From: Sulfurirhabdus autotrophica
GTDB lineage: Bacteria > Pseudomonadota > Gammaproteobacteria > Burkholderiales > SMCO01
Length of the DNA stretch: 64,000 nt
Assembly: GCF_004346685.1 (NCBI RefSeq)
Contig: NZ_SMCO01000016.1
Location: forward strand, 1-64,000
Direction: 5' to 3'
How positions within the stretch are numbered: the stretch's first letter is position 1; each line of letters opens with the position of its first letter. Positions 25,779 to 32,684 of this stretch are shown piece by piece. Position numbers and translations under genes: made by a program. Under the pieces are notes generated by a model, which was not told the DNA's origin, searched no databases, and saw nothing but the letters and a program-made list of their open reading frames with translations.

Positions 25779-26132
25779 TTATACAACAGTTGAGTTGCGC
25801 GAATCAACATCCAGTGCAGTTTCGAATGCAGGGTCTCCTTGCAGAAAATGAGAAAGCGCGAAGGCTGCAGTTGGCTGCATATGAATACAGACCATACGGA
25901 CATTCATGGTGCAACAGGCGCGTGCCAATAATTCCAGCCAAGTGTAATAGACCGGATCAATGATTGTGATTTCACCCAGATCATAATATAGCCGCACAGA
26001 TTTTGAAGCCTGCAAACGCAAAAGAATGCCTTCGATTAACTCGTCGGCTTTACTGGTATCCAATCCGTACATCGGTTCCAGCAGAAAGTCGCCGCCACCA
26101 ATAGGCGTCAGATGGTAGCCATACTGGTTCAT
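25779..26132 (-). CDS. RsbS-like STAS protein with Pro at the phosphoacceptor position
   Basis: This 117-residue protein has the size and strand pattern of an RsbS STAS domain (YDLGEITIIDPVYYTWLELL). In RsbS the residue after the conserved Asp is the serine phosphorylated by RsbT (D-S); here it is Asp59-Pro60. Thr64 nearby is another possible site. It overlaps the RsbR-like gene (ATGA), as RsbS does in stressosome operons. The protein is therefore a candidate stressosome core subunit that cannot be switched at the normal site. The STAS assignment rests on position and short motifs, so it is moderate. Confidence 0.6.
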   Translation of the reverse strand: MNQYGYHLTPIGGGDFLLEPMYGLDTSKADELIEGILLRLQASKSVRLYYDLGEITIIDPVYYTWLELLARACCTMNVRMVCIHMQPTAAFALSHFLQGDPAFETALDVDSRNSTVV

Positions 26133-26995
26133 GCTTTGGCCGATACCTCAATACCCAAAATCTTGAATGCTTCTTTCAATCCATCAGATAGGCTGGCGCG
26201 CGTGGTGACATTACCCAAATCAATATTCAGACTGGTCATTGCCCGCGCAATCTCCGGACGGATACCAGTCAGAATGGCTGTTGCCCCCATCAACTGAATC
26301 GCACGTACCATCTGAATCATGTGATGCGATACTTGCGAATCGACGGAATGCACACCTGTCACATCCATCACCACTGCGCTGGCGCGTTCGGCTGCAATGC
26401 GATTCAAGAGCGCTTCCATCACGACCATGGTACGACTGGAATCAAGTGTACCGATGATCGGCAGAGTCAGCACACCATCCCATATTTCGGTGATTGGTGT
26501 TGAGGTTTCCCGCAACTCCTGCTGTTGTGCATAAATGGTTTTTTCTTTTTCCTCGATGTAAGCCTGAAATACCGAAAGCGTCAATTCATTGAATACGCTG
26601 GAAAGAAGCAACAAAATGCCACGCGTATCTTCAACCGTCACATTTTTATCTTCTTTCAGCGACTCAATAAAGCAACGCTGAAGAAACTGCATATAGCGTA
26701 CAAAATCCTCCATTTTACCGCCGCGCACCAATATCTGCTTGGACATACTGCCGAAAAATCCCTGCAGAGCCTGGAAAGCCGGTTGGTCATGGTCAAGAGG
26801 ATTAGGGACGTCCAAAAGGACAACCATGAGCTCCAGAAACTCAATACTGAAATCGGTAATTTCATCCCCACTCATTAAATTACTGCTACCGAACACCGTT
26901 TGACCTTGCGATTCAATTGCTGCTGAAATATTACCAACCTGTAGTTTGAGCTGTTCGATCATAGTGTGATGAGCAGTATTTTTTTTCTGGGCCAT
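26129..26995 (-). CDS. RsbR-like stressosome protein with STAS domain
   Basis: This 288-residue protein has an all-helical N-terminal sensor region (about 1-160) and a C-terminal STAS domain that fits RsbR (VMDVTGVHSVDSQVSHHMIQ, ILTGIRPEIA). The two sites phosphorylated by RsbT in RsbR correspond to Ser220 and Thr243. The N-terminal region resembles the non-heme globin-like RsbR sensor domain in length, but no heme ligand is obvious. It is the third gene of a four-gene operon after GGDEF and RsbT/PP2C. It probably forms a stressosome-type complex with the following RsbS-like protein. Confidence 0.82.
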   Translation of the reverse strand: MAQKKNTAHHTMIEQLKLQVGNISAAIESQGQTVFGSSNLMSGDEITDFSIEFLELMVVLLDVPNPLDHDQPAFQALQGFFGSMSKQILVRGGKMEDFVRYMQFLQRCFIESLKEDKNVTVEDTRGILLLLSSVFNELTLSVFQAYIEEKEKTIYAQQQELRETSTPITEIWDGVLTLPIIGTLDSSRTMVVMEALLNRIAAERASAVVMDVTGVHSVDSQVSHHMIQMVRAIQLMGATAILTGIRPEIARAMTSLNIDLGNVTTRASLSDGLKEAFKILGIEVSAKA

Positions 26996-27117
26996 GCAGT
27001 TCTCCTTGGATAATCTTTATTTATTTGTTATTTACCATTCAACCTTGCACACTTTTATCAAAAAAATAAAATGCATCTAATCAAGGCTTACATTTCCTTC
27101 CTATCCGGCTTACAGGC

Positions 27118-28194
27118 TCAATTTAACCGAATAACGCAGATGGATTGATCGTCTGTCACCCTGGGCATCACATTCCCTAACACATAGGCAATTAATTGTG
27201 GATGCTGATTGAACAACCTGGGAAATGAATCCTTGTCCCAACCACGGCGGATACCGTCGCTCGCAGTAATGAACAATGTTTTCTTTTCAAAAACGAGTTG
27301 CGTGGCAGTAGGCGTTTTATGTTCTCTACCCAAAATGCCGGGGGCAAATGACAAATTATTTATTGAGTCATGAATATACACATAGGCGCTCATATCACCT
27401 ACACCCAACACATTCAGGTTCTTCTTCGACAAATCAAACTCAGCGGCAATGGCCACAGCACCACGTTCGCCGGTAGTTAAATGATGATCCACTGCTGCCA
27501 GTAATTTATCCAAACCTTCCACACTCAAATAACATCCCAGATTGGATGTAACCCGTTGCGCAATTTCTCCGTGACCCAACCCATCCAGATGCAAAAGCCT
27601 GAGCTTTGCACCATGTTGTTGAAGATATATTTTATCCCCATTAAAACGATCATCATTGAGCGCACGTGAAAAAACACCTATTTCAAATCCTGATTGGGCA
27701 ACAGCAGGCATATTCAAACCGGCCGAACCAGCAGAATTATGCTTGTTCAAATAAAACCGAGTCCAGAGTGCCGTGCCATGCCAGCGGCCATGTTTTGCAT
27801 CTTTTTCCTGCTGCGTATAGATACCAAACTCATCGCTCAGGCGCTGCATACTGCCAAGCCCTTTACCCAATGTTTTGCTGGTTGAGTAGCCATCCTGTTG
27901 AGCCAGAGCAAGGTCATCGACACCCGGACCAAAATCAAATGAAATAATATCAAGCGCAGGGCCAGGTTGCTGCCATACCTGAATCATGCCTTTTCCGCCT
28001 GCGTGCTTTATTAAATTAGTGACCATTTCAGATGCAACCAGCACCATATTTTCACGGCGGACATCAGAAAAACCCATACGTCTGCCGCTAGCCTGCAAAC
28101 GCGAGCGAAGCAGAATACCTGCACTTTCGCTTTGTATGGGATCAGCAAATAAGAGCTTGCATTCATTGCTGTCAATTTTCAATTCCTGACTCAT
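27118..28194 (-). CDS. RsbT-like kinase fused to PP2C (RsbX/SpoIIE-type) phosphatase
   Basis: This 358-residue protein has an N-terminal GHKL ATPase domain with the N-box SEMVTNLIKHAGGKG (about 51-65) and G1 box DFGPGV near 88. This is the RsbT switch-kinase family. A C-terminal RsbX/SpoIIE-type PP2C domain shows HLDGLGHGEIAQR near 205. Kinase and phosphatase for the stressosome, normally separate RsbT and RsbX, are thus one chain. It starts inside the stop of the GGDEF gene (ATGA), so it is tightly coupled to it. It precedes the RsbR gene by 122 bases. Confidence 0.85.
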   Translation of the reverse strand: MSQELKIDSNECKLLFADPIQSESAGILLRSRLQASGRRMGFSDVRRENMVLVASEMVTNLIKHAGGKGMIQVWQQPGPALDIISFDFGPGVDDLALAQQDGYSTSKTLGKGLGSMQRLSDEFGIYTQQEKDAKHGRWHGTALWTRFYLNKHNSAGSAGLNMPAVAQSGFEIGVFSRALNDDRFNGDKIYLQQHGAKLRLLHLDGLGHGEIAQRVTSNLGCYLSVEGLDKLLAAVDHHLTTGERGAVAIAAEFDLSKKNLNVLGVGDMSAYVYIHDSINNLSFAPGILGREHKTPTATQLVFEKKTLFITASDGIRRGWDKDSFPRLFNQHPQLIAYVLGNVMPRVTDDQSICVIRLN

Positions 28195-29171
28195 TTGGAA
28201 TCCGGCAGAAAGTGAGCCCAGGTGATGCTGCCATCGGGATGCCAGGTATCCACCACAACACGGCCTCGTCCTGCTCGCTTTGCTTCATACAATGCGACAT
28301 CCGCGCGGTGAATAAAATTTTGCATATCGCGCTCACCCGGCTCATCCGCAGAAAGTGAGGCGATACCAATACTCACCTTATTATTCATTTGGCTCAACAC
28401 ATGCATCGCTTTGTTGCAGGCAATATCTTTATTGGCATAGAGCAGAATAGCAAATTCGTCGCCACCAAACCGGATAGCATGGTCTACGCCATCACGAATA
28501 GAATGTAGCATTGCCTGCGCCATTTTAATCAGATAGGCATCGCCATACTGATGCCCGTGTTCATCATTGATCTGCTTGAAAAAGTCCAGATCAAACAAGA
28601 TCAGGGATAACACCTCATCACGCTGTCGGAGTGTGCGCTGAAATCCAGTACTCAATCTTTCATCATAGGCACGACGATTCAACAGTCCGGTGAGCGGGTC
28701 CGTCTCTGCATTGCGGATAGACTCACCCAATTCTTCCTGACGTTTTGCCAGTGTCTGCTGCATGATTTCAATTTCTTTTTCAGTACGTATCCGCGTTTCA
28801 TCAAGATGGCGAATCATTTCTGCATTCCGTCTCAGCAGCAATGCGGGATCTGCAATTTCTGTGGACTGTTGCAAATGAAGGCGTAATTGTTCAACAATTC
28901 CTGCTTCGGGTGAATCTTTCAGATCGACAACACTGGACGCAACACCTTGACCAAAATGTACGGTGAGCTGACTATCCTCAAGGAGCAGTGTCACGGGAAG
29001 AGGAAGGCCAGTGCCTGCACCGGCAAGTCGTAAACTGGCAACAATTTGAAGGCAAGAAGATGTGGCAGAAAATTGATTTCCCCCCAGACTTTTCACAGCC
29101 AAGAGCACGAAACCCATAAAATTTTGAATATCTGGTTCGATCACCAGATTTTGTTTTAATAATTCCACCAT
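28191..29171 (-). CDS. Diguanylate cyclase with coiled-coil sensor domain
   Basis: This 326-residue GGDEF protein has a roughly 110-residue N-terminal domain without a recognised motif, a coiled coil (about 115-160), and an intact GGDEF domain: LTGLLNRRAYDERL, FDLDFFKQIND, RFGGDEFAILL. It should make c-di-GMP. The inhibitory I-site RxxD five residues before GGDEF reads DGVD, so product inhibition is probably absent. The ATG at 29171 is preferred to a TTG at 29186, because a plausible promoter lies at about 29202-29229. It is first in the stressosome-like operon and overlaps the kinase/phosphatase gene, so it is the likely output of that module. Confidence 0.85.
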   Translation of the reverse strand: MVELLKQNLVIEPDIQNFMGFVLLAVKSLGGNQFSATSSCLQIVASLRLAGAGTGLPLPVTLLLEDSQLTVHFGQGVASSVVDLKDSPEAGIVEQLRLHLQQSTEIADPALLLRRNAEMIRHLDETRIRTEKEIEIMQQTLAKRQEELGESIRNAETDPLTGLLNRRAYDERLSTGFQRTLRQRDEVLSLILFDLDFFKQINDEHGHQYGDAYLIKMAQAMLHSIRDGVDHAIRFGGDEFAILLYANKDIACNKAMHVLSQMNNKVSIGIASLSADEPGERDMQNFIHRADVALYEAKRAGRGRVVVDTWHPDGSITWAHFLPDSK

Positions 29172-29473
29172 CGACAAATTATGCAACCCTGATTTAGCCG
29201 CTTATAACAACCTAAAGGAAATTGGTCATGCAGGATGGATTATGCTACTAAATGATCGAAAGATACAAAGAAATTAAAGCCAGATAACATTTACAATCAA
29301 AATAGTACAAACAAAAACGAATACTGGCTACATTTCCGAATAGCACTGTCAAATCAGCGAAAAGATTTACACCCCCCTATTTTTAACCCGCTTTATCCGC
29401 ATAAGCCCGGTCAGAAATGCTTGGCATTGCCATCTAATATCGTCATGAAAACCCCATGAAATCCTAAAGAGTT

Positions 29474-30031
29474 TTATCTTGAACGCATCCCGCCTTGGCC
29501 TTTTCTTTCACGAGGAGCACCATTCATAGGCGCCCCACCCTCTTGCATGGGACGCTGCCGTCTGTTTTTAAAATCATCCGACAGACGCTGACGATCTTCC
29601 TGGCTCATATTTTTCCAGCGCTCACGTAATGCCTCACGTTTTGCCTGACGTTCTTCGGGCGAAGTATTTTGTGAACGCTCCCTGAATTTTTGTTTAAGAT
29701 TTTCCCGGTCCTCCGGGCTCATTTGCTGCCAACGATCGCGCAACTCCTGACGCTTTGCCTGGCGTTCTTCGGGCGAAGCATTTGGATTGCCCTGACGGAA
29801 TTCCTGCTGCCTTGCCGTTCGCTCCTCAGGGGTCATACTTTGGCGCTGCTCACGCATCTTTTCACGTATAGCCTGGCGTTCTTCTGGTGGCATATTTCTA
29901 AACTGCTCCCTCTGCTCAGGTGAAATTCGATTCTGAGCAGATGTGAGCTGATCTGCAAATACCGGGGAACCCAACAAAACCCAGGTTGCTGATACAGTAA
30001 CCAGCAATAACCTTTTGGTCATGTTTTTCAT
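29474..30031 (-). CDS. Secreted protein with charged tandem repeats
   Basis: This 185-residue protein has a Sec signal (MKNMTKRLLLVTVSATWVLLGSPVFA) and then repeats of a charged unit of about 30 residues. The unit reads approximately SPEERQAKRxxLRxRWxxMS, and three good copies and two partial ones are visible between residues 38 and 160. The repeats should form long charged helices. I do not know a function; a role in periplasmic stress, metal binding or envelope packing is possible, as in CpxP/Spy-like or EF-hand-like proteins. AAGGA precedes the ATG at 30031 with good spacing, better than for an in-frame ATG at 30037. It is next to a second small secreted protein and OmpR/EnvZ. Confidence 0.75.
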   Translation of the reverse strand: MKNMTKRLLLVTVSATWVLLGSPVFADQLTSAQNRISPEQREQFRNMPPEERQAIREKMREQRQSMTPEERTARQQEFRQGNPNASPEERQAKRQELRDRWQQMSPEDRENLKQKFRERSQNTSPEERQAKREALRERWKNMSQEDRQRLSDDFKNRRQRPMQEGGAPMNGAPRERKGQGGMRSR

Positions 30032-30079
30032 AATCATTTTCCTTAGTAAAGTTGTATTCCCCGAAAAAGCAAATAAGGG

Positions 30080-30460
30080 CTAACGACGCTCCGCATCATG
30101 TTTTTCGTTATAGATATCTTTGCTGGCTGCACGCTGATCCTGATGCAAATCTTTACGTTCATCTCTGGTCAAAACGCCATCGGATTTATATTGGCGTTCT
30201 TCCTGACGAATAGACCTCTGCTCGGACCTGAGATTTTTTGCTTCACTGTGAGTCAACTCACCTGAACGAACGCCTTGCTGAATACGCTCATGCTGATGAA
30301 TCTGATGTCTGTTTACGCCAGGGTCGCGCGTTGCTGCATTCACACGATGGGCATGCGCTTCTCCATGATGCACGCCGGGTTGTGCAAACGCAGATGAAGC
30401 AGCAACAGAAGCAAGTACCAAGCCTATCACAGTAACGAAAGTGTTTTTTAATGCATTCAT
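30080..30460 (-). CDS. Small secreted charged protein of unknown function
   Basis: This 126-residue protein has a Sec signal (MNALKNTFVTVIGLVLASVAASSAFA), then a His-rich stretch (HHGEAHAHR), and then a helical, charged region LTHSEAKNLRSEQRSIRQEE and VLTRDERKDLHQDQRAASKD. The paired segments resemble EF-hand-like or SHOCT-like helical repeats seen in small periplasmic proteins of betaproteobacteria. GGAG lies 7 bases before the ATG at 30460, better than the longer start at 30481. It is likely transcribed with, or next to, the repeat protein after it. Function is unknown. Confidence 0.75.
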   Translation of the reverse strand: MNALKNTFVTVIGLVLASVAASSAFAQPGVHHGEAHAHRVNAATRDPGVNRHQIHQHERIQQGVRSGELTHSEAKNLRSEQRSIRQEERQYKSDGVLTRDERKDLHQDQRAASKDIYNEKHDAERR

Positions 30461-30574
30461 GATATTCTCCATTGTATTCAAGTTTGGGGGTATTTCGCTA
30501 ACTCTTGATCAATTTCAAGCGTTAATGCCATCTTAAAACCGAGATGTAAATAACCTGTTTAAGGAATACTGAAA

Positions 30575-30622
30575 GTTGTAACAAATTGTTGCACCGGAGA
30601 GTTTCGTTACAATTATTAACAA
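30575..30622. promoter_or_regulatory. Possible operator with repeated GTTACAA-like elements
   Basis: Two copies of a TTGTAACAA/GTTACAATT-like element lie upstream of ompR, at 30576-30584 and 30606-30614, with further ACAATT/TTGTTG copies between and after. They could be OmpR or another factor's sites. This is a visual match only, and no -10 element is assigned. Confidence 0.25.
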
Positions 30623-30654
30623 TTATGTCCGCGTTGACGTTTATGATAGCCACT

Positions 30655-31374
30655 ATGAACACACCTGCCCACATTCTGATTATTGACGATGACGACCGCA
30701 TTCGCGAGTTGCTGTTCCGCTACCTTACCGAACAGGGTTTCGAAGTCAAAGCGGTAGCTAACGGGCGCGAAATGTCTCAGGCCATTGAACGCGCCCGATT
30801 TGATCTATGGATACTTGACCTGATGTTACCGGGTGAAGATGGGTTATCCATACTCCGCCGTACACGTGGCACAGGGGAAACCACACCCGTTATATTACTG
30901 ACGGCAAAAGGAGATGAAATTGACCGCATTGTAGGTCTGGAAATGGGAGCAGATGATTATCTGGCTAAACCTTTCAGCCCTCGCGAACTGGTTGCGCGTA
31001 TTCATGCAGTTCTGCGTCGCCAGGGTATGGTACAACCAGGCGCACCCGTCGAAAGTGCTGGCGAAGTGATTTTCGGCCAATGCCGGCTTGATCTGGGTAG
31101 CCGCACTTTGTTCCGTGATGAAGTCGCCACACAGCTCACCACCGGTGAATTTTCCTTGCTGAAAGTATTGGTTAATCATCCGAGACAGGCGTTATCACGG
31201 GACCGCCTCATGGAATTAGCGCGTGGCCGTGACCATGAAGCATTTGACCGTACTATCGATGTACAGATTTCCAGACTACGCAAGCTGATCGAGCCGGACT
31301 CGGCCAAACCACGATATATCCAGACAGTGTGGGGGCACGGCTATACATTTGTTCCTGACGGGACGACTGCATGA
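30655..31374 (+). CDS. ompR: OmpR-family response regulator
   Basis: This 239-residue response regulator has the receiver domain (ILIIDDDDRIRELL, phospho-Asp in WILDLMLPGEDG, then LTAKGDEIDR and LAKPFSPREL) and a winged helix (SRLRKLIEPDSAKPRYIQTVWGHGYTFVPDG). The order and spacing resemble OmpR. The ATG at 30655 is chosen because the sequence begins MNTPAHILIIDDD, as in other OmpR proteins; longer in-frame starts reach 30586 without a ribosome site. It overlaps envZ by ATGA. Target genes cannot be read from the window. Confidence 0.9.
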   Translation: MNTPAHILIIDDDDRIRELLFRYLTEQGFEVKAVANGREMSQAIERARFDLWILDLMLPGEDGLSILRRTRGTGETTPVILLTAKGDEIDRIVGLEMGADDYLAKPFSPRELVARIHAVLRRQGMVQPGAPVESAGEVIFGQCRLDLGSRTLFRDEVATQLTTGEFSLLKVLVNHPRQALSRDRLMELARGRDHEAFDRTIDVQISRLRKLIEPDSAKPRYIQTVWGHGYTFVPDGTTA

Positions 31375-32684
31375 ACCTGTTTCCCCGCAGCCTGGCTACA
31401 CGGGCCTTTCTGCTGATCGCTTTACTGATATTGCTGTCACTTATCGCAAGCACCATTTTATTCCGCCAGGCAGAGCGCACCCCCCGCGCTATGCAACTTG
31501 CGCAAATGGTCACATCAGTTGTCAATCTCACCCGCGCCGCCGTGCTTTCCGCTGACCCTACACTCAGATCCGCTTTACTGGATGAAATGGCAGAATCTGA
31601 CGGCATAAGGGTTTTTCTGGCTGATCCCCATGAACAGTTGGTGCCATTTGCATTACATTATGGCGTTAATCAAAAAATGGCTACAGATATACGTATACAG
31701 CTAGGCCCGAATACGCGCTTTGCATCAGCCAGGAATGGCGAAGAAGGCTTTTGGGTAAGTTTTTTTATTGGCGATCAGGAATTCTGGATCATGATGCCAG
31801 CTGAACGTATTGAGCGACCAAAACCCTGGCAGTGGCTCGGTTGGAGTGTACTTGTCATGTTCTTTGCACTGATCGGCGGCGCTTTAATTGCTCGACAAGT
31901 GGGCAAGCCACTCAAAAAACTGGCGAGTGCGGCTTATGCTGTGGGGCATGGCGAAACCCCCACGCCACTGGAAGAAAGCGGTGCTGCAGAAACCATTGCT
32001 GTAGTGCGCGCTTTTAACCAGATGTCGTCAGATTTAGCAGCGATCGAACAAGAACGTGCACTGGTATTGGCCGGAATTTCCCATGACTTGCGAACCCCCC
32101 TCACCCGGTTGCGCATTGCAGCAGAATTTATTGATGACGAAGCCAGCAGGGAAGGGATGATATCCGACGTGGAACAAATGGACGCAGTAGTGGGCCAGTT
32201 TCTTGAATATGCCCGGCTCGGTGAGCAAGAACCCATAGCCGAGATCGATCTGCAAGAACTGGTCAGTACTGTAGCCGCACCCTACATGAAGCGTGGCAAA
32301 AGCCTGCTGATCACATTGGCAGAATTTCCGCCTGTTAAAGCGCGTCCGCAATTGCTCAAGCGTGCACTCACCAACCTGCTAGACAACGCAATCAAATATG
32401 GCGGGGACGAAATCTCTCTGGAAAGCTTTAATGCTGACTGGCATGGGCGCCCCTGTGCGTTTTTTGTCATACAGGATCGCGGACCAGGCATACCGGTAGA
32501 AGACATAGAAAAAGCCAAACGCCCCTTTGTTCGTCTTGAAAGCGCTCGAAGCGGCGTAGGTGGATCGGGGCTTGGATTGGCTATTGTAGAACGCGCAGCG
32601 CGCATACAGGGAGGGGAATTGAGATTAGAATCACGCGAAGGTGGGGGATTAAAAGCAACGTTTATTATCCCAATCGTTTCCTGA
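31371..32684 (+). CDS. envZ: EnvZ-like sensor histidine kinase
   Basis: This 437-residue kinase has two membrane helices (about 10-30 and 155-178), a periplasmic loop of about 120 residues, a HAMP (RQVGKPLKKLASAAYAVG), and HisKA with the phospho-His in GISHDLRTPLTRLRIAAEF. A GHKL ATPase follows with LLDNAIKYG, DRGPGI and GGSGLGLAIV. The length and the SHDLRTPL motif match EnvZ. It starts within the ompR stop. It is thought to sense osmotic or other envelope signals; nothing in the sequence says which. Confidence 0.9.
   Translation: MNLFPRSLATRAFLLIALLILLSLIASTILFRQAERTPRAMQLAQMVTSVVNLTRAAVLSADPTLRSALLDEMAESDGIRVFLADPHEQLVPFALHYGVNQKMATDIRIQLGPNTRFASARNGEEGFWVSFFIGDQEFWIMMPAERIERPKPWQWLGWSVLVMFFALIGGALIARQVGKPLKKLASAAYAVGHGETPTPLEESGAAETIAVVRAFNQMSSDLAAIEQERALVLAGISHDLRTPLTRLRIAAEFIDDEASREGMISDVEQMDAVVGQFLEYARLGEQEPIAEIDLQELVSTVAAPYMKRGKSLLITLAEFPPVKARPQLLKRALTNLLDNAIKYGGDEISLESFNADWHGRPCAFFVIQDRGPGIPVEDIEKAKRPFVRLESARSGVGGSGLGLAIVERAARIQGGELRLESREGGGLKATFIIPIVS

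Follow-up and report, generated by a model that had tools for sequence, protein, structure and literature searches.

A stressosome-type operon of Sulfurirhabdus autotrophica with a diguanylate cyclase, a fused ATPase-phosphatase and an RsbS-group protein lacking the phosphoserine

Open reading frame (ORF) analysis of a 64,000-nucleotide stretch of Sulfurirhabdus autotrophica DNA (contig NZ_SMCO01000016.1, positions 1 to 64,000; hereafter the window) located a four-gene operon on the minus strand at 25779-29171, encoding a diguanylate cyclase (DGC; 28191-29171), a single chain with a GHKL ATPase and an RsbX-type PPM phosphatase (TX; 27118-28194), an RsbR protein (26129-26995) and a small STAS protein (S; 25779-26132). 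The first-pass annotation of this stretch had reported four coupled genes of stressosome type here, and all four ORFs were confirmed at that place, in a gene order that recurs in relatives; the coupling was borne out for DGC/TX and RsbR/S, where the stop of one gene overlaps the start of the next by 4 bp, and not for TX and RsbR, which are 122 bp apart. Most relatives also have the DGC/TX overlap. An alternative TTG start at 29186 would extend the DGC gene (28191-29186), but Met6 at 29171 agrees better with the starts of the relatives and is probably the true start.

A search with S alone against 399 genomes of the window's order (Burkholderiales) gave a match in 30. The order DGC-TX-RsbR-S was kept in 28 of the 29 other S-positive genomes (six interrupted by contig ends), the sole exception (genome G073, locus L060) being a Vibrio-type operon of RsbR, RsbS, RsbT and RsbX (R-S-T-X), and a class-wide search with TX revealed 14 additional cassettes outside the order, spread over many families. 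With the same gene order in 42 further genomes, the cassette is not a chance arrangement. Named cassette genomes include Sulfuricella, Sideroxydans, Gallionella, Thiobacillus, Hydrogenophilus and Sulfurimicrobium, and protein identity among the cassettes of the order was 47-78%. The genes flanking the cassette differed between genomes, and it is therefore regarded as a self-contained module; no close copies were present in the plasmid collection searched.

S alone had no match in Pfam, but a profile of its family placed Bacillus subtilis RsbS first among PDB chains (a weak match, E 0.013), and the AlphaFold2 model of S showed a STAS fold (predicted local distance difference test score 82.6) whose four top solved matches were RsbS structures of Listeria, B. 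subtilis and Moorella (Z 12.1, 12.1, 11.7 and 11.4, with RsbR following by a small margin at 11.3). Profile-profile alignment likewise preferred RsbS (97.7% probability, score 73.8) over the RsbR STAS domain (89%, 42.7). The comparison with RsbS and RsbR families proposed in the first-pass annotation thus favoured RsbS by profile, fold and profile-profile alignment, and membership of another STAS group was rejected, chains of RsbV/SpoIIAA appearing only lower in the fold list. On profile and model evidence, S is classed as an RsbS-group protein, corresponding to the single-STAS scaffold subunit of a stressosome with a modest margin over RsbR in both profile and fold.

The residue of S at the RsbS phosphoserine position is Pro60 (codon 25953-25955), as had been predicted from the sequence and is supported by both alignment and model: it is the first residue of helix α2, follows a conserved Ile-Asp pair and matches RsbS Ser59 without gaps. 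Misalignment of the site was considered and rejected, since the I-D-x-x-Y segment falls gap-free on I-D-S at the start of helix α2 in the profile alignment and the model. Proline is not the characteristic state of the site, being only the commonest of 11 residues found in the 43 cassette S proteins (P 18, E 5, Q 5, T 4, R 4, D 2, and L, G, K, N and A one each), none of which has serine; the neighbours Asp51, Ile58, Asp59, Tyr62 and Trp65 are nearly fixed. Nor is an RsbS without the serine unique, as Vibrio RsbS also lacks it (Gly in V. vulnificus; V. brasiliensis according to PMC4976288). Elsewhere in S, position 9 (Thr9, codon near 26108) is Thr or Ser in all 43 proteins, and position 88 (Thr88, codon near 25871) is Thr in 31.

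RsbR consists of a globin-like N-terminal sensor domain, a long helix and a STAS domain (Pfam STAS 1.7e-12), the arrangement of a stressosome RsbR. Its STAS domain matched Vibrio RsbR (7o0i, 1.2e-33) and Listeria RsbR (4.9e-29), and the full-length model matched Listeria RsbR with Z 19.1. The N-terminal half was modelled as a helical bundle resembling the non-heme globin domains of RsbR/pXO type (Z 13-15, in a range where helical bundles generally score high), and 16 of 27 RsbR relatives touched Pfam RsbRD_N (best 6e-4). No invariant His was found in this half among the 27 aligned relatives, which suggests that the sensor is heme-free. According to the PDB alignments, Ser186 (codon 26438-26440) corresponds to T171 of B. 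subtilis RsbRA and Ser199 of V. vulnificus RsbR (VvRsbR), and Ser220 (codon 26336-26338) to T205 and Thr233, respectively, in line with Heinz 2022 (PMC9237108), where the two VvRsbR residues are equated with the two RsbRA sites. Both serines, at the RsbR phosphosite positions of known stressosomes, were invariant in the 27 proteins. The first-pass annotation had named Ser220 and Thr243: the former stands, whereas Thr243, although invariant, was rejected as a known phosphosite by the PDB alignments and the Heinz 2022 numbering, its place being taken by Ser186.

TX carries an ATPase domain (27745-28167; Pfam HATPase_c_2, 1.5e-8) and an RsbX-type PPM domain (27121-27693), on which Pfam SpoIIE gave a weak match (0.05) and for which the family profile retrieved the Moorella RsbX-like chain 3zt9 (2.4e-16, best) and B. 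subtilis RsbX (4.3e-9). In 25 proteins compared, the kinase N-box residues Glu56 and Asn60, the glycines of the G1 (DxGxG) and G2 (GKGLG) motifs and the phosphatase aspartates (D204 of HLDGLGHG, D313 and D348/D349) were invariant; kinase and phosphatase activities are therefore both expected.

RsbR loci were surveyed across Pseudomonadota to place the ATPase domain of TX. Many had the order R-S-T-TX, in which a stand-alone RsbT is followed by an ATPase-RsbX fusion, and others were of the types R-S-T-X and R-S-T-T-X. A careful tree put the cassette ATPases together with those of the TX proteins from R-S-T-TX operons on one side of a branch (support 98/95), apart from stand-alone RsbT, and a quick ATPase tree agreed with lower support. 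On this phylogeny, the fused ATPase of the cassette is assigned to the companion ATPase of RsbX and not to RsbT orthologues. Stand-alone RsbT, the switch kinase of stressosomes, was absent from the operon and from the window genome (100% complete), where no other RsbT-like match exceeded 32 bits and the remaining matches were weak and all in long frames typical of histidine kinases. Taken together, these placements indicate that the cassette retained the companion ATPase without RsbT itself. Of the earlier description of an RsbT-like kinase fused to an RsbX phosphatase, the single kinase/phosphatase chain was confirmed and the RsbT identity was not; neither is the fusion distinctive, being carried by 19 surveyed R-S-T-TX operons. 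Five R-S-T-T-X operons (L185, L188, L224, L225, L230) have two stand-alone ATPases before RsbX, possibly an unfused form of R-S-T-TX, and in five R-S-TX operons of other classes (L170, L177, L179, L182, L193) with no separate RsbT the ATPase groups with RsbT-like kinases, a case separate from the cassette.

Across operon types, the RsbS site was Ser or Thr in all 19 R-S-T-TX operons (Ser 18, Thr 1), in 13 of 21 R-S-T-X types and in none of the five R-S-TX operons lacking RsbT (Q, Y, Y, Y, L), while the 38 cassettes included in this survey had Thr in four and Ser in none. The simplest reading of these sequences would be that the serine drifts freely where RsbT is gone. A correlated loss of RsbT and the RsbS serine was nevertheless not upheld, the counts being suggestive but the independent-pairs test offering only 2-3 pairs. 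In five R-S-T-X-DGC operons (L196-L200), RsbR lacks a sensor and amounts to a STAS domain of about 140-160 residues, with S, H, H, C and R at the RsbS site.

The DGC comprises a cassette-specific N-terminal domain of about 120 residues (28812-29171), a helical linker and a GGDEF domain (Pfam 2.2e-34), and its synteny is conserved. The GGDEF motif (residues 241-245, 28452-28466) is intact, and the I-site Arg position (232) is Asp, bearing out the earlier description of a cyclase without an I-site; the position was non-Arg in 20 of 22 family members. The first 120 residues matched no family in Pfam or NCBIfam. Among 369 genomes of the order, 28 had the domain, namely 27 cassette genomes and one (G061) with a short remnant, and the cyclases of the R-S-T-X-DGC operons in the survey lacked it. 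An RsbU_N domain was considered and discarded because Pfam gave no match, either in the 22 members or for the N-terminal domain by itself, an absence which is not proof. We regard this region as a candidate new signalling domain and, by analogy with the coiled-coil linkers of RsbU and GGDEF proteins (PMC12143880), as the natural candidate for receiving the signal and passing it through the helical linker to GGDEF. The remnant (L292, G061:C33:9410-9508) spans 33 residues in a cassette-bearing genus, in a genome where the order-wide search with S found nothing, and is possibly a decayed cassette.

In the textbook stressosome, RsbT is released upon phosphorylating RsbS. Starting from the observed gene content and its conservation, the catalytic and site residues, the absence of RsbT and the origin of the ATPase domain, we propose a stressosome variant with RsbR as the sole target of TX and with a signal that arrives at the DGC by a route other than RsbT release; we assign it a probability of roughly one half. 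RsbR and S, by homology, would form a STAS core, with the globin-like domain of RsbR as sensor. TX would add and remove phosphate at Ser186 and Ser220 of RsbR and nowhere else, the scaffold site of S offering no phosphoserine, and the output would lie in the state of the core and of the TX docked on it, there being no RsbT to be released by RsbS phosphorylation. That state would act through the N-terminal domain and helical linker of the DGC, which is probably translated together with TX, to set the level of cyclic diguanylate (c-di-GMP) synthesis. The kinase, phosphatase and GGDEF residues and RsbR Ser186/Ser220 are invariant while site 60 of S varies freely, and the retained RsbR serines agree with the suggestion in the first-pass annotation of a switch set only by RsbR. 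As a whole, that interpretation is partly supported. Its stressosome-type proteins, the c-di-GMP enzyme as their likely output, the single kinase/phosphatase chain and the RsbS-group protein lacking the phosphoserine all stand, whereas Thr243 as a phosphosite, the RsbT identity, and the distinctiveness of the proline and of the fusion do not. The fuller statement, that this is a natural stressosome without RsbT and without the RsbS phosphosite, its bifunctional kinase-phosphatase modifying RsbR alone and its core controlling a DGC via a dedicated domain, is more tentative and falls somewhat short of even odds.

Several observations weigh against this proposal. Thr occupies site 60 in 4 of the 43 S proteins and could be used by a GHKL kinase, and Thr9 of S is Thr or Ser in all 43, the sole such position, so that another phosphosite may exist. 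Some operons with a free T, of Vibrio type, likewise lack the serine, and the tree shows only about three changes in the presence of RsbT, giving 2-3 independent pairs and an association without statistical power. The RsbR tree, contrary to the ATPase tree, places the cassette nearer some R-S-T-X than R-S-T-TX operons (94, with long branches), and a single loss of RsbT from an R-S-T-TX operon is therefore no more than a possible origin. The two threonine observations also speak for a release switch working on another residue, with TX phosphorylating S at Thr9, Thr88 (Thr in 31 proteins) or, in a few species, Thr60, leaving as RsbT does in Bacillus and binding the DGC; V. brasiliensis RsbS is indeed phosphorylated despite missing the Bacillus site (PMC4976288). 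Thr9, however, lies in strand β1 of the model and not at the start of helix α2 that faces the kinase in known complexes, and conservation of Thr88 does not extend beyond the clade of the window's order; we consider such a switch unlikely.

Phosphorylation may also be of lesser importance, a conformational change in RsbR altering the docking of TX or the DGC and phosphorylation merely tuning the response, much as Gaidenko and Price suggested for the mechanism underlying stressosomes in general. B. subtilis stressosomes with T171A S59A still respond (PMC3944199) and site 60 is unconstrained in the cassettes, but the invariance of the kinase motifs, of the metal-site aspartates of the phosphatase and of RsbR Ser186/Ser220 suggests that selection maintains phosphorylation, and allostery alone appears quite improbable. 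In a further alternative, S would itself act directly on the DGC, in the manner of SiaC on SiaD, with RsbR and TX governing the availability of S for binding and activating the cyclase. Every complete cassette encodes S together with the DGC, partner switches acting on DGCs are known (PMC7647112) and SiaD was the second-best NCBIfam model on the DGC; the match reached 115 bits, well short of the cut-off of 290, and covered only the linker and GGDEF, while S groups with RsbS and its co-translation with RsbR better suits a core subunit. We rate this as very unlikely. The main proposal is in line with the work of Gaidenko and Price (PMC3944199), where B. subtilis stressosomes with RsbS S59A, and even with T171A S59A, still signalled, and S59 phosphorylation was suggested to be an overlay on a more basic mechanism.

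Stressosome control of c-di-GMP and RsbS without serine in Vibrio are already known, and the ATPase-RsbX fusion was common in our survey. The Moorella thermoacetica stressosome, as cited in PMC4976288, PMC7647112 and PMC12143880, acts on a DGC, and further links between stressosomes and c-di-GMP are listed by Heinz 2022 (PMC9237108). Like the cassette, the Moorella system (MtR, MtS, MtT, MtX and the cyclase MtG) has RsbR, RsbS and RsbX homologues with a DGC as target, the PPM domain of TX having its best match in 3zt9 and S matching MtS structures, but it has a separate kinase (MtT), a phosphorylatable Ser58 in MtS and a cyclase carrying RsbU_N and GAF domains (PMC12143880); no such feature was detected in the cassette. 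The Vibrio rsbRSTX operons (V. vulnificus, V. brasiliensis) share the proteobacterial setting, an RsbS without the Bacillus serine (B. subtilis RsbS sites not being conserved in V. brasiliensis RsbS; Jia 2016, PMC4976288) and the equivalents of Ser186 and Ser220, but differ in their heme globin sensor, stand-alone RsbT and RsbX, R-S-T-X order and, in V. vulnificus, two-component output. The surveyed proteobacterial R-S-T-TX operons have the same fusion, with the nearest kin of the cassette's ATPase domain, but also a separate RsbT, a Ser or Thr at every RsbS site and no cassette-type DGC. Pseudomonas SiaABCD and similar systems combine in one operon a kinase/phosphatase couple controlling a DGC, but they have no RsbR sensor, their phosphatase SiaA is a protein of its own, and SiaB and SiaC come from different families.

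No published description of the cassette was found in the openly accessible literature, the scope of our search. Within that scope, no account emerged of a missing RsbT combined with a missing serine and a DGC domain peculiar to the cassette, and the grouping of the fused ATPase with a companion ATPase that elsewhere stands beside a separate RsbT is, on our trees, also new. How stressosomes transmit their signal is unsettled, and a module without RsbT and the serine would offer a natural system for the basic mechanism with no release step. If the proposal is true, the cassette would be a natural counterpart of the RsbS S59A experiment, kept across many families of one large proteobacterial class, and several iron- and sulfur-oxidisers would have in it a defined path from sensing to c-di-GMP.

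The neighbouring nrdD/nrdG genes and two-component pair (30586-32684) were rejected as a functional hint, not being kept beside the cassette in relatives. Beside this two-component pair, upstream of the cassette at 29474-30481, lie genes, likewise not conserved with the cassette, for two small secreted-looking proteins rich in charged repeats.

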